IMG/VR virus record: IMGVR_UViG_3300044568_004623
Span: 1-30,490 of that record
Length of the DNA: 30,490 nucleotides
DNA from: a virus
Reading direction: 5' to 3' (one strand)
The notes beneath the pieces were generated by a model. That model saw only the letters and a list, made by a program, of their open reading frames with translations, made no database searches and was not told the origin of the DNA. The translations under genes and the position numbers were made by a program. Positions 5,538 through 30,490 of this stretch are shown here, piece by piece. Each line of letters opens with the position of its first letter. Position 1 is the stretch's first letter.

Positions 5538-5840
5538 TTATGAAAAAGTTTTCTTCAGCCATCTTGCAATTCCACCTGCACGTGACCGTAGAACTTGATT
5601 CAGTTCATTATCTACTTTTAGACCGAGACTTCTTTGTAGATTTCTTTGAATCAGATGCGACTCTTTTCTTGTGTCACACCAAGCAATAATTTCGATTTCG
5701 AGATCTACACCTTTGAAAGGTGAGCGTGTACGAGTACGGTGCTGTCTGAGACGATCTTCGATTTCTTGTCCTGTTTCTCCAACATAGACAATCTGATCGC
5801 CCTGTTTCATTACATAAACTGCTCTAGTTTCCATTTCCAT
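5538..5840 (-). CDS. GIY-YIG domain protein
   Basis: This is a 100-residue leftward protein from ATG 5840. An upstream GTG at 5855 would add five residues, and ATG 5834 is another option. The N-terminus AVYVMKQGDQIVYVGETGQ matches the GIY-YIG nuclease core: VYV stands for GIY, YVG for YIG, and a helix with Arg (RLRQHR) follows. The domain covers nearly the whole protein, with no extra DNA-binding region seen. Such stand-alone domains are found in homing endonucleases and in UvrC-like or Slx1-like nucleases. It overlaps the 3' end of the sigma-like gene by 17 nt and is probably translated from the same message. DNA cleavage is known for the family; the target here is unknown. Confidence 0.75.
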   Translation of the reverse strand: MEMETRAVYVMKQGDQIVYVGETGQEIEDRLRQHRTRTRSPFKGVDLEIEIIAWCDTRKESHLIQRNLQRSLGLKVDNELNQVLRSRAGGIARWLKKTFS

Positions 5841-6213
5841 TTTCTTTATATTCACCGGTTACAATTAAGAGATCAACATGAACATAATTCTTGTTCTTAT
5901 GATATAGTTGAAAATATTCCATTTTAGCTACTTGTGTAAAGTAAGCAAAAACATTTGTAGATTTTTCGGGATTGAATTTATCCCACATTACTAGCATTCG
6001 TAAGAGAGCATTCGAAACATTATCATCGAACCAATGATTTTTTGCTGCATACTGACGAGCAGCTCTGCGTGCTAGTAACTGAAGTGATAGTGCAAATTTG
6101 TCTGTGACTTTTCCCTCTTCTTTGCAAACATACCATTCAGCTAGCATTTCTTTATTGCTGAGGTAGTTCCCAGATTCTCTTTCAGCTAAAGTTATTTTGG
6201 GAGGTCTTGCCAT
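5824..6213 (-). CDS. T4 gp55-like late sigma factor
   Basis: This is a 129-residue leftward protein. Residues ~18-110 follow the layout of T4 gp55 as I remember it. An N-terminal YLSNKEMLAEW segment corresponds to YVNNKELLQA. A helical stretch (LSLQLLARRAARQYA) follows. Then comes a sigma region 2-like motif, FNPEKSTNVFAYFTQVAKMEY, against [21 protein letters not shown]. It is shorter than gp55 (185 aa) and lacks the C-terminal clamp-binding motif, so it may work without the sliding clamp. The expected role is to redirect host RNA polymerase to phage late promoters. It has a 5' leader with a strong hairpin. It could also be a more general sigma-70 region 2 protein. The alignment is from memory, not computed. 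Confidence 0.6.
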   Translation of the reverse strand: MARPPKITLAERESGNYLSNKEMLAEWYVCKEEGKVTDKFALSLQLLARRAARQYAAKNHWFDDNVSNALLRMLVMWDKFNPEKSTNVFAYFTQVAKMEYFQLYHKNKNYVHVDLLIVTGEYKENGNGN

Positions 6214-12161: not shown

Positions 12162-12644
12162 ATGTCTATAGTCTACGCTACTACATACAGCAAATTGATC
12201 TCAGCACTAAAAGAGCTGGCACTTTCTAACTTGGCAATAAAGTCTTTTAGAGTAGGACCTCTTTCGGACGTAGAAATTGCAATGAAGAGTGATGATCAGC
12301 AAGCACAGAACTCTTTCAAATATCCCTATGTACATCTCGTTCCAGTTAATGCTACAATGAACGGGAGATCTACGATCTTCTCTTTCGACATGATCATTAT
12401 GGATCTTGCAAAAGACGAAATCGATCTTGAAACTACAGTACACTCATCTACTTTAGAAATCACAAGAGATATCATGGCCAAGTTTAATCAAACTACTTGG
12501 ACAGAGTTTAGATACAATATCCAATTACCAGCTACGACTACTCCTTTTGTAGAAGGTTACTTAAACTCGGTAGCTGGATGGACAACACAATTAAATGTAG
12601 AAGCCATTACACCTCTCGATCTTTGTAACGCGCCTTTTATCTAA
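12162..12644 (+). CDS. Putative tail completion/terminator protein
   Basis: This encodes 160 residues from ATG 12162, preceded by AAAGG, one of the few starts with a purine-rich site. The sequence is mixed alpha/beta. An N-terminal helix (TTYSKLISALKELA) is followed by beta segments such as YPYVHLVPVNATMNG, and by FSFDMIIMDLAKDEIDLET, which resembles the core of tail terminator proteins that cap the tail tube. It opens the rightward tail module and is separated from the gp10-like gene only by a homing endonuclease. The assignment is by position and fold impression, not by a recognised signature. Confidence 0.5.
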   Translation: MSIVYATTYSKLISALKELALSNLAIKSFRVGPLSDVEIAMKSDDQQAQNSFKYPYVHLVPVNATMNGRSTIFSFDMIIMDLAKDEIDLETTVHSSTLEITRDIMAKFNQTTWTEFRYNIQLPATTTPFVEGYLNSVAGWTTQLNVEAITPLDLCNAPFI

Positions 12645-12671
12645 TCTCGCCAAAAATGATTATAATATAAT

Positions 12672-13142
12672 ATGTACACCGTCTATAAAATATTCGAAAA
12701 CGAGACTAGAAAGGTCGTTAAAGTCGGAAGGACTAATGATCTTTGGCGAAGAATAAATCAGCACTTCAAACAGAAGACTGGTAAGTTCTATGGAATGCAA
12801 GATACTCACACAATACAAGTGATAGAAGAAGTATCTACACTACTATTAGCAAATAAGAGAGAAGAGTACTGGCAAAAATTCTATGAATTAGAAACTGATC
12901 TAGAAAAGAAAAAGTATGGAGGATTTGCTACAACTGACTTCTTAGAATCTCTTTCATCTGGTGAAAAGAAACTTTACTTGACGGGTAAAGCAGTAAAAGG
13001 AGTTGATACATTCTTTTCAAAAGGAGAAGATCATGTTAGTTCTTGGAAGTCCAAAATTTCAGAAACACTTAAAAATAAACAACCCTTTGCATGTGCTTGC
13101 GGTAAAATGCTAAAAGCGCAAGGAAGGCATAAATGTAAATGA
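12672..13142 (+). CDS. Free-standing GIY-YIG homing endonuclease
   Basis: This encodes 156 residues from ATG 12672. The GIY-YIG core is in the first ~90 residues: TVYKIF for GIY, VVKVGRT for YIG, Arg in DLWRRINQH, and Glu in the later helix NKREEYWQKF that should bind the metal. The C-terminus has a basic helix (SWKSKISETLKN) and CACGKMLKAQGRHKC, a Cys-X-Cys...His-X-Cys set that could bind zinc and recognise DNA. It lies between two tail genes, with a 27-nt gap before it and an ATGA overlap after it. This fits a mobile intergenic nuclease that spreads by cutting related genomes lacking it. It is not in an intron as far as I can see. Confidence 0.8.
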   Translation: MYTVYKIFENETRKVVKVGRTNDLWRRINQHFKQKTGKFYGMQDTHTIQVIEEVSTLLLANKREEYWQKFYELETDLEKKKYGGFATTDFLESLSSGEKKLYLTGKAVKGVDTFFSKGEDHVSSWKSKISETLKNKQPFACACGKMLKAQGRHKCK

Positions 13143-13603
13143 GTACTTTTCTAGGTGTATTTAGCGAAATCGAAGATCAAATCTTGGCTGACTTAAAAGT
13201 AGTCGGAGACTTCATGGTGCAAAAATACAAGCAGCAAGTACCTGTAGATACTGGTCGTTTGAAAAACTCTATCAAGTATGCAATCACTAAAGTACCTGAT
13301 GGATATAGAATCAGTATTGGTTATTTGATCTATGGAGTCTTTCAAGACTTAGGTGTAAATGGAACCAAAGTCAATCGCGGATCTCCATTTCAATTCAGAT
13401 CACAAACTATTGGTGGCCGCTTACCTTTTGCAGTGCGTAAATCAATCGCAGAAAAAGGACTCAGAGCCAGAAACTGGACCACATTAGATCCTACAGCAGA
13501 AGCTCAAATTGAAGAAAAGATTGTAGAGATCTTCGGAGAAGGATACGAAGAAATCTTTGGTAGAATATTTGCTAGAACGAAAACAGAAAAAACTCTATTA
13601 TGA
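13139..13603 (+). CDS. HK97 gp10-like tail/neck protein
   Basis: This 154-residue protein carries VPVDTGRLKNSI at residues ~35-46, the signature of the HK97 gp10 family of minor tail or head-tail joining proteins. The rest is alpha/beta, with GYLIYGVFQDLGVNG in the middle and a helical, charged end. It should act at the neck where tail meets head. ATG 13139 overlaps the endonuclease stop (ATGA), and its own TGA overlaps the next start (ATGA), indicating coupled translation. The order gp10-like then tail assembly chaperone then tape measure is that of siphoviruses. Confidence 0.85.
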   Translation: MSTFLGVFSEIEDQILADLKVVGDFMVQKYKQQVPVDTGRLKNSIKYAITKVPDGYRISIGYLIYGVFQDLGVNGTKVNRGSPFQFRSQTIGGRLPFAVRKSIAEKGLRARNWTTLDPTAEAQIEEKIVEIFGEGYEEIFGRIFARTKTEKTLL

Positions 13604-14402
13604 TAGAATTTAGCCTTGATAAAAAAGAATACGAGATCGGTGATGTAACTATCGAGCAGTACTACAAAATTGTAGACTTGCTCATTCTTACTGAGTCAGT
13701 ACAAGCTCAATATGAAATCATCAATTTGCTTTCAGATGCACCCATCGAAGATTTAAGGAAACTGGGTATGGGAGAATTTACACTCTTATGGAATGAAGTG
13801 CAACGCGGACCCTTGGGTCTAGAAGACAACCCACCCCTGATAAAATCTTTCTACATCGAGAATCAGTGCTATGCTTTTCTAGACTTGAACAAGTTAACAA
13901 TCGGAGAGCTTGCAGATATGGATGTTCTACGACAAGATCCACAGCGAGATAAGAAGCTACACACGATGATGGCTATTATGTACAGACCTGCAGTAGAAAT
14001 CTCTAAAGCATGGTTCAAGATCGAAGAGTATGATTCGGACACACTGGAACTCAGAGCAGAACTCTTCAAGACAATGCCCATCAAAAATGTAATGGGAGCT
14101 ATCAACTTTTTTTTTCATTTCATAAAAGCCTCTTACGAAAGTATTCTGGACTCTTTGGCCTCGACGACGGAGAATCAGGAGGAGAAGCAGAGACTAATGG
14201 AGGCGAAGTTCGTCATGTTAAGTCTGCTAGATTCTGGACAGGGATCTTCTACTTTCTTTGCGGAGAAAACATTCTCGAAATGGAAAGAGTTACACGTATC
14301 CCTGTTACAACAGCTTTCAACTTTCTCGCCCACAAAAAGACAGAAGCTCGTAAAGCTGCCTTGGAAGCAGAAAAACTCAAGAAAAAACACAATCTAATAT
14401 AA
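13600..14402 (+). CDS. Tail assembly chaperone-like protein with probable -1 frameshift
   Basis: The 0 frame from ATG 13600 is open for 265 codons (stop 14395-14397). After codon 172, at a run of nine T (14107-14115), codon use changes: the 0 frame then has TCG-ACG-ACG-GAG and similar G-ending codons unlike the neighbours. The -1 frame from 14115 is open to TAA 14400-14402. It reads naturally (FWTGIFYFLCGENILEMERV, then TRIPVTTAFNFLAHKK and a Lys/Ala/Glu-rich helix), and its stop overlaps the next ATG as TAATG. The fusion would have 267 residues. Position between gp10-like and tail-tip genes upstream of the tape measure matches gpG/gpGT chaperones, which use such shifts. A one-base assembly error is the alternative. 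Confidence 0.7.
14107..14115 (+). promoter_or_regulatory. T9 slippery run in the tail chaperone gene
   Basis: In the 0 frame the codons are AAC TTT TTT TTT CAT. A one-base backward slip leaves all codon-anticodon pairs intact and moves the ribosome to the frame TCA TTT CAT AAA AGC. A run of nine T could also cause transcriptional slippage. I saw no strong downstream pseudoknot by eye. Confidence 0.6.
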
Positions 14403-15847
14403 TGGCAATCACTTCAGTAGCATACAAACCCTTATGGCTTTGCACTGGTTACAATCCCATTGTCTGGTCTGTACTCTCAAACAATGTAGCTCAAGTCGAT
14501 TTCTCGTACGTATTTGACGTATACATCAATGGAGTTAACACAGTACGAATCAGACAAAGACCTAATCCCACGAATTACGGGATGATAGATGTTTCTGCGA
14601 TTGTAGAACCCTATTTAAACACGTCTAACTTTACACAGGGCTTAACAGAGACAGGACCTAATGACTGGTTTTGGAATAATGCAGATGCATCTGCGCATGT
14701 ATACATTAAAGTCGGAGAGCAGTGGGGACCAGATGGAACAATCTACAATGGACTTGCAAACACAGTAGGTGCTCCTGCTTATGCAGTATACTCTAGCTAT
14801 TCTGGTCTAGATGTTCCAGTTCATGCAATTGCTGGATCTCTTGACGATCACACAAATCTTTGGGCAATGCAAAACACAAGTGGCGGTGGAATCTGGGCTT
14901 CTAATCCTTTTCAAGAAGATAGAAATTATGATCATGGGCTTGATCTTGCATATCCACTTTCATGGGATACTCTAGAGCGTGATATGTTCGAATTCGACAA
15001 AGGCATTATTACGTGGATCAACTGGTCACCTTGGGCAGCACAGCAAAATAGACCTATTTACGGATTCCGTTACAGAGTTTACAATGCTCTGGGAACTCTG
15101 GTTTCTACTACTGATGTACCTGTTATTGTTGCAGATGGAAGTGGACCCAGAACTACTTGCTCAACTTCTATTGCGGCACAAATCGATAATGAGTATGATT
15201 TGATTCATGTAGTTTGCGGACCAGATGAAATTAGAGATCTTACAGTGAATCCAACGCTGGCTCCAGGCTGGAGCTACAGCATACAGGGTTATGAAGTAGG
15301 TACTCTGGGTACTTGTACATTCGGAGAGCCAGTCACAGTAGAAGTTACGATTAATGTAAAAGAATATTGCGAATACTTGTACCCAAGAGCTCGACTTAAC
15401 TGGTTGAATTCTTACGGAGGGCGAGATGGATTCAATTTTACTGCAGAAGCAGAAGAAAATATTTCATCTACTCAATCTTCTTACGCACAAGAGCAACTCA
15501 ATTGGAGCGGTTCTGTTCCCGTGACTCAATTGAATTCTACTTATCCACCTACGGCTACTCTTGCAATCAAGGGTGGTAATAAGGTGTATAACAAAAACAT
15601 CACAACCACTTGGAAGCTTACCACAGACTGGTTAACTCAAGACCAAATAACCTTATTAAAGGATTGCGCAAAGTCATCTCAGGTCCTTATGTACATCAAG
15701 GGTGATAGCACAATCTACGATTATTTCCCTTATGCATGCACTATCAAAAATGCAAGTTACTCAGTAAAGCTGATTAAAGCTTACAAGATGTACAATGTAA
15801 CTTTTGAAGTAGAACTTGCACAACCACAGAAAATGCAGAATAACTAA
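14402..15847 (+). CDS. Tail structural protein (distal tail/baseplate-like)
   Basis: This encodes 481 residues from ATG 14402, overlapping the TAA of the shifted frame of the preceding gene. It is beta-rich with many Trp, Tyr, Asn and Thr residues, no signal peptide and few Lys. The opening AITSVAYKPLWLCTGYNPIVW and the repeated short beta units suggest a tail-tip protein. The C-terminal ~110 residues (TTWKLTTDWLTQDQITLLKD...) resemble a second tail domain. From memory, Bacteroidota phages and prophages carry a similar pair of large proteins at this place. It lies before the 1241-residue tail-tip protein and upstream of the tape measure. In lambda-like order these genes follow the tape measure, so the order here is rearranged. 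Confidence 0.6.
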   Translation: MAITSVAYKPLWLCTGYNPIVWSVLSNNVAQVDFSYVFDVYINGVNTVRIRQRPNPTNYGMIDVSAIVEPYLNTSNFTQGLTETGPNDWFWNNADASAHVYIKVGEQWGPDGTIYNGLANTVGAPAYAVYSSYSGLDVPVHAIAGSLDDHTNLWAMQNTSGGGIWASNPFQEDRNYDHGLDLAYPLSWDTLERDMFEFDKGIITWINWSPWAAQQNRPIYGFRYRVYNALGTLVSTTDVPVIVADGSGPRTTCSTSIAAQIDNEYDLIHVVCGPDEIRDLTVNPTLAPGWSYSIQGYEVGTLGTCTFGEPVTVEVTINVKEYCEYLYPRARLNWLNSYGGRDGFNFTAEAEENISSTQSSYAQEQLNWSGSVPVTQLNSTYPPTATLAIKGGNKVYNKNITTTWKLTTDWLTQDQITLLKDCAKSSQVLMYIKGDSTIYDYFPYACTIKNASYSVKLIKAYKMYNVTFEVELAQPQKMQNN

Positions 15848-19828: not shown

Positions 19829-22108
19829 ATGGCAGATAGAACCATAGGTTTTACCCTCAAAGTCAACGGCGTCCAGCAAGCAATCACTTCGATTGATCAG
19901 CTGGACCAAGCAGTAGTTGATCTCGAAACTTCGCTGAAACAAGCCGAGTTTGGATCAGCTCAATTCAAAGAGCTACAAAAGCAGTTGATTGCAGCAAAGT
20001 CTGCAAAAGAAGATCTCGATAAATCACTCGAGGGTAGAGGCGCGGAAAAACGTCTGCAAGGTATTATCGGTCTTGCAGAAGGTGTAGGCGGTGCTTTTGC
20101 ACTTGCATCACAAACAGCAACACTCTTTGGTAAAGAATCAGAGCAGCTTGCAAAAGCAGAAGCAAAAGCTCAACAAGCTATTTCAGTAGTTCTAGGTATT
20201 AGAGCTATTAAAGAGGGCTTGCTAAACTCTGCACTAGAAAGAAAAATCATTCTAGAAAAAGCATCAGCTGCTGGTACTGTAATCTTAAACGCAGTCAATA
20301 AAGCTTTTAATCTTACTCTTAGTCTGAATCCTATTGGACTTATTGTAACAGCAGCAGGTCTACTTATAGTTGCATTCTTGAATCTTATTGGTCCGATCAA
20401 GAAATTGATGGCTCAATTTGACTTCTTGAACAAAGCTGCAGATGCAGTTCTAGGTACTCTAAGAGATATTGGATCTTTTTTAACTGGTGGATTGATCTCA
20501 GATTCAGCAACTGCTAAAATCGAAGAAAATGCTACAAAAGCAGTCGAAGCCCTAGATGATATTGCATCAGCTGGTAACAAAGTAATTGATGCAGAGAAGC
20601 GTAGATTAAGTTTCTTAGAAGCAAGTGGTGCTACAGAAGAAGCAATCTATGAGCAGAAGCAAAAAATTACTAAAGCTGAACTTAAACTGAAAACAGATGC
20701 AGCAAATGCACTAATCAGACTGCAACAAAAGACTGGAGAATTAGATGAAGAGCAGCTAAAGAAACTGCAAGAACTACAAAAAGCAATTGCAGACTTAAAT
20801 CAGCAAGCTATCAACGAAGAAACTGCTTTCGAAAAGAAGAAAGCTGACGATAAAAAGAAGGCAGCAGAAGAAGCCAAAGCCAAAGCAAAAGAAGCTGCAG
20901 ATAAAGCTGCTGAAGCTCTAAAGAAGCGTAGAGAAGATGCACTGGCTCTTGAAAAAGATGCTCTGAAAACATCTAAAGACTTACAAAATCAATTCTATTT
21001 AGAATCTCTAAAGGACGAAGAGTTTAAAGCACAAGAAACTCTCAGAATTCAACAAGAAGCTGCACAAAAAGAGCTTCAGTTACAGATTGATACTCTTGCA
21101 AAGAAAAAGGCTCTTACAAAAGAAGAAACTGCAGCACTTACTGCACTTCGTCAAGAGCAAACTAATTTAACAGCAGTACAGGGTCAACAAACTCAAGCAC
21201 TTCTAGATACACAAGCTGAAACTCGTAAGCAAAAGCAGAAAGAATTTGATGCCGAGTTAAAAGGCTTACAACAAGCAGCAACTCTAGGAGCAATTGAAGA
21301 TGAGCGAGAACGTGGCCGTAAGACAATTGAAGTCGATCTACAAAATCAGATAGATGCAATCAATCAAAGAGAGCTAACTGAAACTCAGAAAGCCGAACTG
21401 ATAAAAGCTATTACCACAAAGAGCAATCAAGATCTACTTGAACTAAATAAGCAATATGCTGAAGAAGATAAACAGATCGACATGGCAAAGCTTGAATCCA
21501 AGTATGCAAATGCACAAGTGCAGATCGATCTTGTAGCACAAGTAGGATCTTTCTTATCACAAATAGCTGGTGAAAACAAAAGACTTGCAATCGCAGGTAT
21601 TGTAATAGAAAAAGCTGCAAGTATCGCAAATATTGTAGCAAATACTGGAATTGCAAATGCAAAAGCAGTAGCTGCTACACCTCTTACTGCAGGTCAACCT
21701 TTTGTAGGAGTAAATACAGTTTCTGCTGGACTTTCAATTGCACTTGCAATTGCAGGAGCTGCAAAATCTATAAAAGAAATCAATGCAGCTGGTAGTGAAG
21801 CCGGTGGAGGCGGTGGAAACAAGCCTACTCCGTCTAAGTTTGCATCAGGTGGTATGGTATATGGTCCAGGAAGCGGCTCCTCTGACAGCATACCCGCATT
21901 GCTTTCTAATGGTGAATCTGTAATCAATGCGCAATCAACACAAATGTTTGGTGGTGTACTTTCTGCAATTAACCAAGCAGGTGGTGGAGCACCAATCACA
22001 AATGGTGGTGACAGTATTGCACCAATCGTAAAAACTTATGTAGTTGCTTCTGAGATGAGCTCTCAACAAGAAGCAGACTTCAGAATCAATCAAATAGCAA
22101 GACTCTAA
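19829..22108 (+). CDS. Tail tape measure protein
   Basis: This 759-residue protein sets tail length and is ejected during infection. The N-terminal ~80 residues hold a helical region with a Gln/Lys-rich coiled coil. Residues ~148-190 are strongly hydrophobic (GTVILNAVN..., then NPIGLIVTAAGLLIVAFLNL), the usual membrane-active segment. Residues ~235-555 form a very long Ala/Lys/Glu/Gln coiled coil. Residues ~570-660 are Ala/Ile-rich. The C-terminus has a Gly-rich FASGGMVYGPGSGSSDSIP with SIPALLSNGESVINA, a motif found at the end of many tape measures. At about 0.15 nm per residue the tail would be roughly 110 nm long, an estimate from the general rule only. The stop overlaps the protease start (TAATG). 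Confidence 0.92.
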   Translation: MADRTIGFTLKVNGVQQAITSIDQLDQAVVDLETSLKQAEFGSAQFKELQKQLIAAKSAKEDLDKSLEGRGAEKRLQGIIGLAEGVGGAFALASQTATLFGKESEQLAKAEAKAQQAISVVLGIRAIKEGLLNSALERKIILEKASAAGTVILNAVNKAFNLTLSLNPIGLIVTAAGLLIVAFLNLIGPIKKLMAQFDFLNKAADAVLGTLRDIGSFLTGGLISDSATAKIEENATKAVEALDDIASAGNKVIDAEKRRLSFLEASGATEEAIYEQKQKITKAELKLKTDAANALIRLQQKTGELDEEQLKKLQELQKAIADLNQQAINEETAFEKKKADDKKKAAEEAKAKAKEAADKAAEALKKRREDALALEKDALKTSKDLQNQFYLESLKDEEFKAQETLRIQQEAAQKELQLQIDTLAKKKALTKEETAALTALRQEQTNLTAVQGQQTQALLDTQAETRKQKQKEFDAELKGLQQAATLGAIEDERERGRKTIEVDLQNQIDAINQRELTETQKAELIKAITTKSNQDLLELNKQYAEEDKQIDMAKLESKYANAQVQIDLVAQVGSFLSQIAGENKRLAIAGIVIEKAASIANIVANTGIANAKAVAATPLTAGQPFVGVNTVSAGLSIALAIAGAAKSIKEINAAGSEAGGGGGNKPTPSKFASGGMVYGPGSGSSDSIPALLSNGESVINAQSTQMFGGVLSAINQAGGGAPITNGGDSIAPIVKTYVVASEMSSQQEADFRINQIARL

Positions 22109-23880
22109 TGAAAAACAAAAAACTAGTAGAACTCGGTATCTTATCTGAAGATGAGAACTCAGGAGTAAGTGCAATTTCTCTTGTAGAGAATCCAGCAATT
22201 GAAGTCGACTTCTTGTACTTCAGAGAAGAAAAATTCGTAAAGCCAAGTGCTGGAGAATCAGAAAATGAATTCATCGGTAGATGTATTCCAGTTCTTAGAG
22301 ATGAAGGCAAACCAGAAGAGCAAGCAATTGCAATCTGTTATTCATACTGGGAGAACAGAATGGAGAAAATGGAAATCACTCCAAACCCATGTTGGAAAGG
22401 TTATGAACCTATTGGCTTAAAAGACAAAGGCGGAAGAAAAGTTCCTAATTGTGTAAAGATGGAGGGTTACGATTTCGAAGAACTAGATATCTTTGGTTAC
22501 AAAACTCGTTTCTTTTTTATCTGTCCAGGTGCAACAGCTACCTTTGAACATCTTATCTCTATGAATCCAGATGACGAGACTCAGGGAATGATCAGAGCAG
22601 CTGCAGTAATTGCAGATAGAGTTTTCGAAATCGAAAAAGAAGTAGTAGATGAAGGCGTAGCAACTCCAGAACAATTACAAGAAGCTGTAGTTTTGGTAAA
22701 TGACTTCTATGATATCATATACGAAATCGATGAAGAGCTCGGAATGGTACACAATGTACAATACATGGAAGGACATCTTGAATTGATCTTAAGCTACATT
22801 CCAGATGAAATGAGTATTGATACTGCAGGCTTGCCACCTTATGTCGATGAGATTGGTAAAAAAAAAGAAATGAGTCTAGCTGAAAAACTGGGTGAAACTG
22901 ATTTAAGTATTTTTTCTGAATTCGAACTCAGTGTTCTAGAAAGAGCAAGTGAGCTTGGAATTCCAGATAAAGAAAATTTTGCTACAGAAACTACGATTAA
23001 TAAAGCAAGAGAAATTAGCGAAGTAGTACCTTCTGGCCAAAAGATCACAAAAGGTGAAACTTTAATCAGATACAAATACACAAAAAACCCACTTGCGGGC
23101 GGTGGCCGAGCTCAACGCGGATTTTGTAAGTCAATGCTGTATCTAAACAGATTCTATTTATATGATGAAATCAGATCATTAGACGGTTCAAATGAAGGGT
23201 TTGGTCTTAACGGTGCTGCTACTTACAATATCTTCGAATACAGAGGTGGTAGTTTCTGTAAGCACTACTGGAAAGCTTTCAAGTTTGAAAAACCTGCAGA
23301 TGGATCTAAAACAATCATAACAGAAAGCCCAAGTGACGATGGCCCAACAGATAATATACCAAGAGTGAATCCTCCTTCGACCGGCGGACAGTCGTTTTCG
23401 AAATGCTGTTCTACAGAGACTCATTTCTCTGCACTTCGTTTTGCAGATGAAGAACAGAAAATAGTAGTCGGACCAGCAATGATTCCCGAGATGGCAATTC
23501 CACGTAGAGACGAAGATGGTGATATCTACTATGTAAAGTTCTCTGCAGAAACTATCAAAGAGATCATGATGAAATTCATGAAAGAAGCTCGTACAAATGC
23601 TACAAATCAAGATCACCAAGAAGACAATGCAGCTGGAGCTTATGTGTATGAGTCATGGTTAGTAGAAGATCCTGAAAACGATAAAGCAAATACGAAATAT
23701 GGATTCAATGTACCAGCTGGAACTTGGATGGTAAGTATGAAAGTTGATGATAAAGAAACTTGGAAGCGGGTAAAGAACGGAGAACTTCGTGGATTCTCTG
23801 TAGAAGGATTCTTCTCAGATCTAGATGAAATACAGGGATTGAAAAAGTATCTAAAGATCATGAAGATCTTAAAAGACTAA
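22108..23880 (+). CDS. Multidomain prohead protease (XkdF-like C-terminus)
   Basis: This encodes 590 residues. The N-terminus VSAISLVENPAIEVDFLYF is typical of capsid maturation proteases of Bacteroidota phages. Next come a Cys-containing GRCIPVLRDEGKPEEQAIAI unit (residues ~52-71) and GLKDKGGRKVPNCVKM (~108-123), motifs I know from phage head proteins. Residues ~125-440 hold further domains, including RYKYTKNPLAGGGRAQRGFC and FEYRGGSFCKHYW, a possible Cys/His metal site. Residues ~450-590 match XkdF: a NQDH segment, YVYESWLVEDPENDKA, GTWMVSMKVDD and GELRGFSVEGFF. The His in NQDH and Ser in YESW may be catalytic, but this is unproven. Its expected role is cleavage of scaffold and capsid during head assembly. 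It is far longer than a simple protease, so fusion of head factors is likely. Confidence 0.75.
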   Translation: MKNKKLVELGILSEDENSGVSAISLVENPAIEVDFLYFREEKFVKPSAGESENEFIGRCIPVLRDEGKPEEQAIAICYSYWENRMEKMEITPNPCWKGYEPIGLKDKGGRKVPNCVKMEGYDFEELDIFGYKTRFFFICPGATATFEHLISMNPDDETQGMIRAAAVIADRVFEIEKEVVDEGVATPEQLQEAVVLVNDFYDIIYEIDEELGMVHNVQYMEGHLELILSYIPDEMSIDTAGLPPYVDEIGKKKEMSLAEKLGETDLSIFSEFELSVLERASELGIPDKENFATETTINKAREISEVVPSGQKITKGETLIRYKYTKNPLAGGGRAQRGFCKSMLYLNRFYLYDEIRSLDGSNEGFGLNGAATYNIFEYRGGSFCKHYWKAFKFEKPADGSKTIITESPSDDGPTDNIPRVNPPSTGGQSFSKCCSTETHFSALRFADEEQKIVVGPAMIPEMAIPRRDEDGDIYYVKFSAETIKEIMMKFMKEARTNATNQDHQEDNAAGAYVYESWLVEDPENDKANTKYGFNVPAGTWMVSMKVDDKETWKRVKNGELRGFSVEGFFSDLDEIQGLKKYLKIMKILKD

Positions 23881-28425: not shown

Positions 28426-30490
28426 ATGGCAGATTTAACCGGAAAACAAATTAAAGATACTTACCCTTCACTTGTAGGTATCGGCACTAGCGGAACAGCA
28501 GGTGTTAGTGGATCTTTACAGCCTTTAACAGACGGTGAAGGCGTAGAACTTCCAATTGAAGTCAGTACTACCGCAGTAAAAATTACTGCAGCTACTACAA
28601 CTACTCAACAACTCTCAATAGATGGTTACGGAGAAGTAATTAATGACTCCGGACAATGGGTAGGTGGTGGGCCTGTCGGTTCTTCTGGAACTAGCGGATC
28701 AAGCGGTTCTTCTGGAACAAGCGGACAAAATGGATCTAGCGGTTCTTCCGGTTCTTCTGGCACTTCTGGCGTAGCCGGTGCTTCTGGTTCTTCTGGATCA
28801 AGTGGTTCTTCTGGTTCATCTGGCACAAGCGGTTCTTCTGGTGCTACTGGCACAAGTGGAACAGGTGGATCAAGTGGAACTAGTGGTTCTTCTGGTTCTT
28901 CTGGTTCATCTGGATCAAGTGGTTCTTCTGGTTCATCTGGATCAAGTGGTTCTTCTGGTTCTTCTGGATCAAGTGGTTCTTCTGGCACAAGCGGTTCTGC
29001 CGGCACATCTGGAACAAGCGGTCTTTCAAGCAGTTTCTTTAACTATCAAGCAAAGACTACTATTACTTCGGGTGATCCTGGAAGTGGTCACTTTATTTGG
29101 AATAATGCAACACAAGCAAGTGCTACAACAATTAGTGTTAGTGAAACAGACCAACTTGGAAACAACGTAGACATTTTTCTTGGTAATTTAGCCATAGGAA
29201 CACTCTTTACATTACAAGATCAATCAGATCATACAAATTTCCAGACCTGGACTATTACATCGAAAACAGATAACACAACTTACTGGACTTTTGGTGTAAC
29301 ATTAGGAACTTCTACTTACACATTCCCTAATAATCACCAGAGTTTGTTTATTATTACTACTACGCCTTCTGGTACAAGTGGCACAAGCGGTTCTTCTGGA
29401 ACTAGCGGAAGCTCTGGTTCTAGCGGTTCTTCTGGTACAAGTGGAGATTCTGGTTCTAGTGGAAGTTCAGGTTCTTCTGGTACAAGTGGAGATTCTGGAT
29501 CTAGCGGAAGTTCTGGTACAAGTGGAGATTCTGGTTCTAGTGGAAGTTCAGGTTCTTCTGGTACAAGTGGAGATTCTGGATCTAGCGGAAGTTCTGGTAC
29601 AAGTGGTGCATCAGGATCTTCCGGGACGAGTGGAACATCCGTAGTTGTATCAGGCACAACAGGTGGTATTGTTTATTTTGATGGCACAAATCCAGTAGTT
29701 TCACCTGATGTAATTTATGGTGTAGCATCTGAACCAGGATTCACAATTACCAATTTAAGCATTATTGGTAATAGAGAATTAGAAGTTTTCAGTGGAGGGA
29801 TAGCAATGAAGCAAGGCAATCTAGGTATAGGCGCGGAAGATCCTTCAGGCACAAGTAATATTCAAATAGGACAAAGTGGTGGTGCTACTGGTACTATTAC
29901 TATTGGTGCATTCATGAATAACACTCCGTCTATTCGTCTTAAATCAAATTTGACTACTGCAGATGGAAACTTAACTGTTGGTGGACAAGCAGCAGCTACC
30001 TTACATAATAATGGTACATCTGGAGCTGTCGATTTCGACAATTCAAATATTCAATCAATTGAACTTACTGCAAACACTACATTCACTTTTGCAGATGGTT
30101 TAAGTGGAGGTACTTATACTCTTAAATTAGTTCAAGGCGGAAGCGGTGGATATTTAGCAACCTGGCCTGGTTCAGTAACTTGGGCAAGCGGTTCTGCACC
30201 TACTTTACAAACTGGCATCGGAGATGTGGATTTTGTATCTTTCTCTTATGATGGAACTACTTACTATGGGTTTGCTGCTCCTACAAATGGCACTTCTGGA
30301 TCTAGCGGTTCATCAGGAACTAGCGGAGTAGCTGGTTCTTCTGGTTCATCAGGAACTAGCGGAGTAGCTGGTTCTTCTGGTTCTAGCGGTACAAGCGGAG
30401 ATTCAGGTTCTTCTGGTTCTTCTGGCACAAGTGGTGATTCTGGATCAAGCGGTTCTTCTGGCACAAGCGGAGTAGCTGGTTCTTCTGGTT
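28426..30490 (+). CDS. Collagen-like repeat tail fibre, N-terminal part (runs off the window)
   Basis: From ATG 28426 the frame is open to the window end (688 codons). Residues 1-84 form a head domain (ADLTGKQIKDTYPSL...). Three Gly-X-Y arrays follow (residues ~85-199, 316-405 and 622-end) made of GSS, GTS, GDS and GVA triplets with no proline. Two folded domains separate them. Residues ~200-315 are Asn/Thr-rich. Residues ~406-621 include TANTTFTFADGLSGGTYTLK and GYLATWPGSVTW, a fibre domain common in phage tails. The arrays are likely extended shafts. If the 126-nt match to the window start is a circular join, the gene ends at 730. The Ser/Thr-rich shaft is a candidate substrate for the family 25-like glycosyltransferase. 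Confidence 0.8.
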   Translation, partial: MADLTGKQIKDTYPSLVGIGTSGTAGVSGSLQPLTDGEGVELPIEVSTTAVKITAATTTTQQLSIDGYGEVINDSGQWVGGGPVGSSGTSGSSGSSGTSGQNGSSGSSGSSGTSGVAGASGSSGSSGSSGSSGTSGSSGATGTSGTGGSSGTSGSSGSSGSSGSSGSSGSSGSSGSSGSSGSSGSSGTSGSAGTSGTSGLSSSFFNYQAKTTITSGDPGSGHFIWNNATQASATTISVSETDQLGNNVDIFLGNLAIGTLFTLQDQSDHTNFQTWTITSKTDNTTYWTFGVTLGTSTYTFPNNHQSLFIITTTPSGTSGTSGSSGTSGSSGSSGSSGTSGDSGSSGSSGSSGTSGDSGSSGSSGTSGDSGSSGSSGSSGTSGDSGSSGSSGTSGASGSSGTSGTSVVVSGTTGGIVYFDGTNPVVSPDVIYGVASEPGFTITNLSIIGNRELEVFSGGIAMKQGNLGIGAEDPSGTSNIQIGQSGGATGTITIGAFMNNTPSIRLKSNLTTADGNLTVGGQAAATLHNNGTSGAVDFDNSNIQSIELTANTTFTFADGLSGGTYTLKLVQGGSGGYLATWPGSVTWASGSAPTLQTGIGDVDFVSFSYDGTTYYGFAAPTNGTSGSSGSSGTSGVAGSSGSSGTSGVAGSSGSSGTSGDSGSSGSSGTSGDSGSSGSSGTSGVAGSSG
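28678..29022 (+). repeat. Gly-X-Y array 1
   Basis: About 38 nine-base triplet units encode GSS and GTS, with rare GQN, GVA, GAT and GTG variants. Several longer blocks, for example the 30-nt GGATCAAGTGGTTCTTCTGG-type units at ~28914-29000, repeat almost exactly, which points to duplication by slippage or unequal crossing-over. Confidence 0.9.
29371..29640 (+). repeat. Gly-X-Y array 2 with a perfect 81-nt tandem duplication
   Basis: Bases 29431-29511 and 29512-29592 are identical over 81 nt (27 residues), and a further 14 nt continue the match. The array encodes GTSGDSGSSG-type units. Identity at every synonymous position means the duplication is recent. Confidence 0.92.
30289..30490 (+). repeat. 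Gly-X-Y array 3, right window end
   Basis: The array holds two perfect 36-nt units at 30307-30342 and 30343-30378, then a 108-nt block (30363-30470) whose first 20 bases begin again at 30471. This array is identical to 1-126, so its true length cannot be known from this window. Confidence 0.92.

Follow-up and report, generated by a model that had tools for sequence, protein, structure and literature searches.

A probable T9 slip site with two overlapping C-terminal tails in a candidate tail assembly chaperone gene of tailed phages

In a viral record of 30,490 bases (the window, meaning here the whole stretch of DNA that was analysed), a gene starting at position 13600 carries nine consecutive T near its 3' end, and both the 0 frame and the -1 frame stay open for more than 90 codons beyond them. 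The locus raises the question of which of the two C-termini belongs to the protein, whether the other one is maintained by selection or is a chance opening, and how the change of frame would be made. The initial annotation had proposed a tail chaperone with a -1 frameshift on the T run. The comparisons below go further than that proposal, since the T run and the two open tails are real, and the T9 with its selected, dual-coded tail is an invariant feature of a whole gene family.

Reading frames at the T9 run and the homologous genes

The 0-frame ORF occupies positions 13600-14397 and encodes 265 aa. Its first 172 codons (13600..14115, plus strand) form a G-like N-terminal domain common to both products, which AlphaFold2 models with pLDDT mostly from 83 to 97. 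This domain ends on the T9 (14107..14115, plus strand; AAC TTT TTT TTT CAT), which lies in phase 0 with respect to the reading frame, contains the heptamer U_UUU_UUU and is the sole run of at least 8 T in the window. Past the run, the 0-frame tail has 93 codons and a TAA (14116..14397, plus strand). The -1 tail, a T-like domain, has 95 codons and a TAA (14115..14402, plus strand), giving a fusion of 267 aa, and the two tails overlap almost completely. The -1 frame is open from the T9 to the TAA at 14400-14402, which overlaps the ATG at 14402 of the next gene as TAATG; that gene (14402..15847, plus strand) encodes a tail-module protein of 481 aa and unknown function. The +1 frame is closed by a TAA at 14123..14125 (plus strand), within 3 codons of the run. 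The run coordinates, the tail lengths, the TAATG junction and the two product sizes with their different C-termini had all been given correctly in the initial annotation. Thus, a -1 shift close to the 3' end of the gene would allow two products from a single start, a layout seen in the sequence and again in the comparison with homologues.

Four contigs from IMG/VR (L002-L005) carry the same gene with 85-100% identity, all of them with T9. The contigs of L002 and L003 end before either tail closes, and L004 and L005 have a 0-frame tail of 82 codons and a -1 tail of 95. A profile scan that used only N-terminal residues, and is therefore blind to the run, found 558 stretches encoding relatives in IMG/VR, from which the best 80 were kept; being the best matches to one query, these 80 sample one part of the family most densely. 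Nine T are found in 76 of the best 80 and ten T in the other 4; the conserved tail lies in the -1 frame in all of them. Wherever a tail ends inside the sequence, it measures 46-90 codons in the 0 frame and 79-93 in the -1 frame; in 80/80 a stop of the +1 frame comes no more than 3 codons past the run. A similar closure was observed in 193 of 196 homologues, with stop codons that differ between lineages. The same contigs contain few other T9 runs (11 in 508,600 nt). A DNA pattern of T9 followed by TTTAGG retrieved 120 stretches, 118 of which are members; this set is biased to T9 by construction and was used for the tails only. Family-wide, the 0-frame tail ranges from 25 to 93 codons, the shortest (25-31 codons) being restricted to a few members.

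The family is also present in cultured phages. In Nonlabens (Persicivirga) phage P12024L, gp40 is homologous and carries T9, its -1 frame runs through the separately annotated gp41, and gp41 together with the stretch before it aligns with the -1 tail of the window. Phage P12024S (gp38/gp39) has T9 and the same layout. In both records (NC_018272, gp40/gp41; NC_018271, gp38/gp39) the gene is annotated as two hypothetical genes, the second starting inside the -1 tail. Profile searches of IMG/VR and bacterial genomes gave further members, including one in Flagellimonas onchidii. All other named hosts being Bacteroidota, one member (L020, PAPR01000004.1) stands out, as it comes from a metagenome-assembled genome named for an alphaproteobacterium, Pseudooceanicola; this contig is possibly misbinned.

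Homopolymers are prone to sequencing errors, and the true run could be thought to have ten T, which would make the frame of the window continuous. The homologues rule this out, and we give practically no credence to an error of sequencing or assembly: T9 is found in independent contigs and in deposited isolate genomes, the T10 members (e.g. L016) still need a -1 shift since their phase differs, and the frames are joined in none of the 80 profile relatives. Ten T in one continuous frame, which the initial annotation had named as evidence against a shift, is thus absent, no homologue with a T run having a run length that joins the frames.

Constraint on the two tails

The -1 tail behaves as the regular C-terminus of the protein. 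It is 67-68% identical in L004/L007, and conservation of the -1 C-terminus extends to about 200 distinct homologues. In L036 (273 aa) and L243 (245 aa), both of them distant homologues that lack the T run, the N-domain and a -1-type domain are read in one continuous frame. Moreover, the -1 stop overlaps or abuts the downstream ATG in most homologues, whereas the 0-frame stop does not. From the one-frame homologues and this coupling of stop and start, we take the -1 tail as the canonical C-terminus and the 0-frame tail as an added layer. Modelled alone, the -1 tail is predicted as a helical domain (pLDDT 76). The comparison thus strongly supports the proposed shift on the T9, and the opposite pattern, homologues matching the 0-frame C-terminus and not the -1 one, was not found among them.

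It remains to explain the 0-frame tail. With the -1 protein kept fixed and codons drawn according to phage usage, the 0-frame tail of the window came to a median of 15 codons, and none of 300 trials gave as many as 93 (p<1/300); across the family, the observed median is 62 codons, against 6 for synonymous shuffles. When only the codons beyond the 32nd were redrawn, the tail of the window was longer than in 200/200 draws (p<1/200). A stricter null, synonymous permutation within the tail, was weaker for the window alone (p 0.17), because the codons of the tail are themselves already biased. The initial annotation had pointed to G-ending codons in the 0 frame unlike those of its neighbours; we now read these odd codons as what dual coding would produce.

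Silent sites in both frames past the run, whose testing had been suggested earlier, show constraint in the -1 tail and in the 0-frame tail. As the relatives are phylogenetically correlated and the sequence pairs are not independent, p-values are too optimistic and the effect sizes weigh more: at -1 four-fold sites, the difference in pairs 85-97% identical is 0.289 before the slip, 0.060 in the overlap and 0.259 past the 0-frame stop, and in pairs 65-75% identical it is 0.594 before the run, 0.246 in the overlap and 0.496 past the 0-frame stop. Base changes between the window and L004 tell the same story. Before the run they number 20, 10 and 57 at the three codon positions, mainly at the third as in an ordinary gene, and after it, counted in the -1 frame, 21, 17 and 26, the even spread expected if two frames are constrained. 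Codons with unchanged amino acid differ in 42/143 cases before the run, 9/59 in the -1 tail and 3/54 in the 0-frame tail, and four-fold sites differ in 21/47, 4/24 and 0/23, respectively. Hence the silent sites of the -1 frame are constrained only while the 0 frame is open and relax past its stop, and therefore both tails are selected. These comparisons indicate that the overlap is dual-coding, with purifying selection on each tail.

The constraint is not uniform along the overlap. It peaks in the first 16-24 codons past the run (about 50-70 nt) and declines further on, the silent-site difference being 0.04 in the first 16 codons, 0.46 at the linker codons 32-40 and intermediate beyond. The distal part of the 0-frame tail is less certain since the constraint is weaker there, yet that of the window passes the test on its redrawn distal codons. 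In AlphaFold2 models from 70 aligned 0-frame proteins, a helix continues across the slip (residues 161-189) and a second one follows (193-211), with pLDDT of 83-93, and confidence drops past about residue 210, the last part of the tail being poorly modelled. One phage-database row was left out of the alignments used for these models.

Such a gradient would suit another explanation, in which codon use has left the 0 frame open by accident, the parts that count are the N-domain and the -1 tail alone, and an RNA signal accounts for the scarcity of silent changes near the slip. The concentration of constraint within about 50-70 nt of the run points that way, as do the few members with 0-frame tails of only 25-31 codons and the loss of predicted confidence after about residue 210. 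We consider it improbable. Every tail with a known end in the profile set has at least 46 codons, although shuffles reach a median of just 6, and over much of the distal overlap silent-site rates stay low, increasing once the 0 frame has closed. A structured RNA was rejected as the cause of the silent-site constraint, since no fold signal was detected: downstream of the run there was no structure beyond chance (mean z -0.05, vs -0.14 for the upstream control).

The possible origin of the frame change

The phase of the run varies within the family, being 0 in the window, 1 in most members and 2 in L031, L032, L033 and L035, but its length is always at least nine T (the T9 of L032 and L033 was verified by eye). 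In phase 1, the eighth T is at once the third base of a Phe codon in frame 0 and the first base of a Leu codon in frame -1, where a C would be silent in both. This doubly silent site is T in 63/63 members, while like sites elsewhere in the overlap have 76 T vs 48 C. Since runs of at least nine T recur in three phases and the doubly silent T is invariant, we suggest that the conserved signal is the length of the run, beyond what a slippery heptamer needs. An uninterrupted A/T run of about nine or more with conserved length is the pattern associated with transcriptional slippage, and in many bacterial genomes selection against slippage on A/T runs becomes apparent at a length of nine nucleotides (PMC1088944). 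On these grounds, we somewhat favour slippage of the RNA polymerase over ribosomal -1 frameshifting. The frameshift put forward in the initial annotation is thus kept as a shift into the -1 frame, and its agent may be the polymerase, with run length as the conserved signal.

The tails as described above could also be produced by programmed -1 ribosomal frameshifting on U_UUU_UUU, with no part for the polymerase, and this is a serious, though less probable, reading. A heptamer of the form X_XXY_YYZ is present inside the run in every phase, and the G/GT pairs in the literature consulted here use the ribosome (PMC5009743). The T at most positions of phase-1 runs could follow from the heptamer plus the encoded V/L-F-F-Y/W residues; the T at the run end, however, is silent in both frames and dispensable for the heptamer, yet it never varies. 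The recurrence of runs of at least nine T in phases 0, 1 and 2 also speaks for the polymerase. Stimulators, which are common but not universal at ribosomal sites, are lacking, as few Shine-Dalgarno-like motifs were found upstream and the downstream RNA gave no structure signal. The missing structure does not exclude the ribosome, because phage P2 makes E/E+E' at TTTTTTG without any (PMC3091744).

Under the reading that we prefer, standard decoding would give the 265-aa protein, made of the common N-domain and a mostly helical 0-frame tail, and in a minority of decoding events at the T9 the -1 frame would be entered, giving the 267-aa fusion, in which the same DNA supplies a T-like C-terminal domain. 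The polymerase would add one U, so that some mRNAs have U10; otherwise, the ribosome would slip by -1 on U_UUU_UUU. The reading of U9 as the message for the 0-frame tail and of U10 as that for the T-like fusion, two forms from one gene, is supported by the sequence. More speculatively, a U8 mRNA would yield a product truncated within about 3 codons, as read from the closed +1 frame, and this could be a third form of the chaperone. If the RNA polymerase does make the slip, the control of tail length would be set at the level of transcription. In the open-access literature on transcriptional slippage together with a tail assembly chaperone we found only a general review, a prediction tool and a genome survey. 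The broadest statement, that a large clade of tailed phages of Bacteroidota sets its chaperone ratio by polymerase slippage at an invariant T9 while one DNA encodes two selected tails, is offered tentatively, as an idea with slightly less than even odds.

The product, its neighbourhood and known systems

We infer from position, layout and size that the product is a tail assembly chaperone of the lambda G/GT type. The earlier name of tail chaperone stands on these features, with no recognised sequence homology: searches of Pfam, NCBIfam and PDB sequences gave no match for the protein, and the sole family match common to all 70 aligned members is phrog_32199, of unknown function. A fold search against PDB with the models of both tail products returned nothing significant. 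Weak hits are those to phrog_166 'tail protein' in 6/70 members (best E 4e-4) and to a BFVD entry named tail assembly chaperone (75 columns, E 0.55, prob 0.96). The gene directly upstream encodes an HK97 gp10-like tail-completion protein (13139..13603, plus strand; PF04883 E 5e-5, phrog_5 E 5e-5), and another upstream gene (12162..12644, plus strand) encodes a probable virion or tail-terminator-like protein, an assignment which rests on synteny and a weak phrog_2581 hit (E 0.13). The tape measure gene (19829..22108, plus strand; phrog_24 E 1.1e-17) lies 5.4 kb downstream, so the candidate chaperone precedes it within the tail module without being adjacent. The chaperone with its downstream gene order recurs in L043 and L092, and the order that recurs in relatives is terminase, chaperone, terminator-like, gp10-like, two tail proteins and tape measure, its tape-measure end having been seen by eye in few of them. 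In other members, a homologue of the terminator-like gene directly follows the chaperone. As an observation apart, most members (among them L050, L092, L178 and L181) have the chaperone ahead of the terminator-like and gp10-like genes, and in the clade of the window (12162-13603) it comes after them.

In the textbook case of the G/GT frameshift, the unshifted protein simply stops. Here, it would keep a long tail that is under selection and shares its bases with the T domain, and the overlap itself would be functional. The tail-assembly frameshift is conserved among dsDNA phages, lambda G/GT being the reference (PMC5009743, citing Xu, Hendrix and Duda 2004). The present gene shares with it one start, a common N-domain, a -1 shift near the 3' end, a T-like extension, the location in the tail module and a widely conserved layout. 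On the other hand, the unshifted product carries a selected tail of 25-93 codons with no early stop, a homopolymer T9 takes the place of a heptamer of varied sequence as slip site, sequence homology is undetectable and the gene is not directly beside the tape measure. Since the early stop of the unshifted product is a defining feature, we call the gene a variant, and not a member, of G/GT; the dual-coded T9 gene is a variant of a known tail-chaperone device. The initial annotation had found the long 0-frame tail unusual next to gpG/gpGT. The lack of an early stop is indeed at odds with that system, but it is not peculiar to the window, being a family trait under selection. In lambda, the tape measure is the binding partner of the G part, and T brings in the tail tube protein (PMC5009743). 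By analogy, the unshifted form, the more abundant of the two, would coat the tape measure, and recruitment of the major tail protein would fall to the rarer fusion. As a whole, a chaperone pair of G/GT layout, made by a slip at the T9 (more likely of the RNA polymerase) and bearing two selected, dual-coded tails, is in our judgement a well-founded and probable reading of this gene.

Other systems share part of these features. P2 E/E+E' (PMC3091744) also has a T-rich slip site, a -1 frame and no RNA structure, but uses T6G instead of T9 and belongs to a different protein family. The A9/T9 slippage genes (Thermus dnaX, Shigella mxiE and IS elements; PMC1088944) likewise have an unbroken run of nine A or T in the coding region and need a frame change; unlike the phage gene, they are cellular or IS genes, and their extra frame restores one product or truncates it, whereas in the present gene each of the two downstream frames seems to encode a selected protein sequence. 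The genes of P12024L (gp40/gp41) and P12024S (gp38/gp39) have the homologous N-domain, T9 and -1 tail, and differ from the window by a 0-frame tail of only 25 codons and by their annotation as two separate hypothetical genes. These cultured phages allow direct testing. The T9 with its shared downstream signature finds the gene in raw viral DNA (118/120 matches) and would correct the annotation of hundreds of contigs.

Flavobacterium phage 6H gp10 (L241, 10352-10927, minus strand) was considered as a family member and rejected. It has TTTTTTC near its 3' end, a -1 stop just past it and no T9, and a long -1 frame opens only after that stop. Given a structural match (E 2e-4), it is a possible remote structural relative without T9, and it was excluded from the family counts.

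A GIY-YIG endonuclease gene (12672-13142; PF01541 E 4e-7) is found between the terminator-like and gp10-like genes, and it looks like a homing-type insertion because these neighbours overlap directly in L014. A second protein with a GIY-YIG domain is encoded at 5538-5855 (minus strand; PF01541 E 5e-5). An A9 run (22858-22866) lies inside a gene with an XkdF-like protease domain (PF14550, 22108-23880). Long (GSSGTSG)n collagen-like repeats occur at 28426-30490 and 1-730, in open frames that run off the ends of the window, and are probably one gene of a circular or permuted genome.
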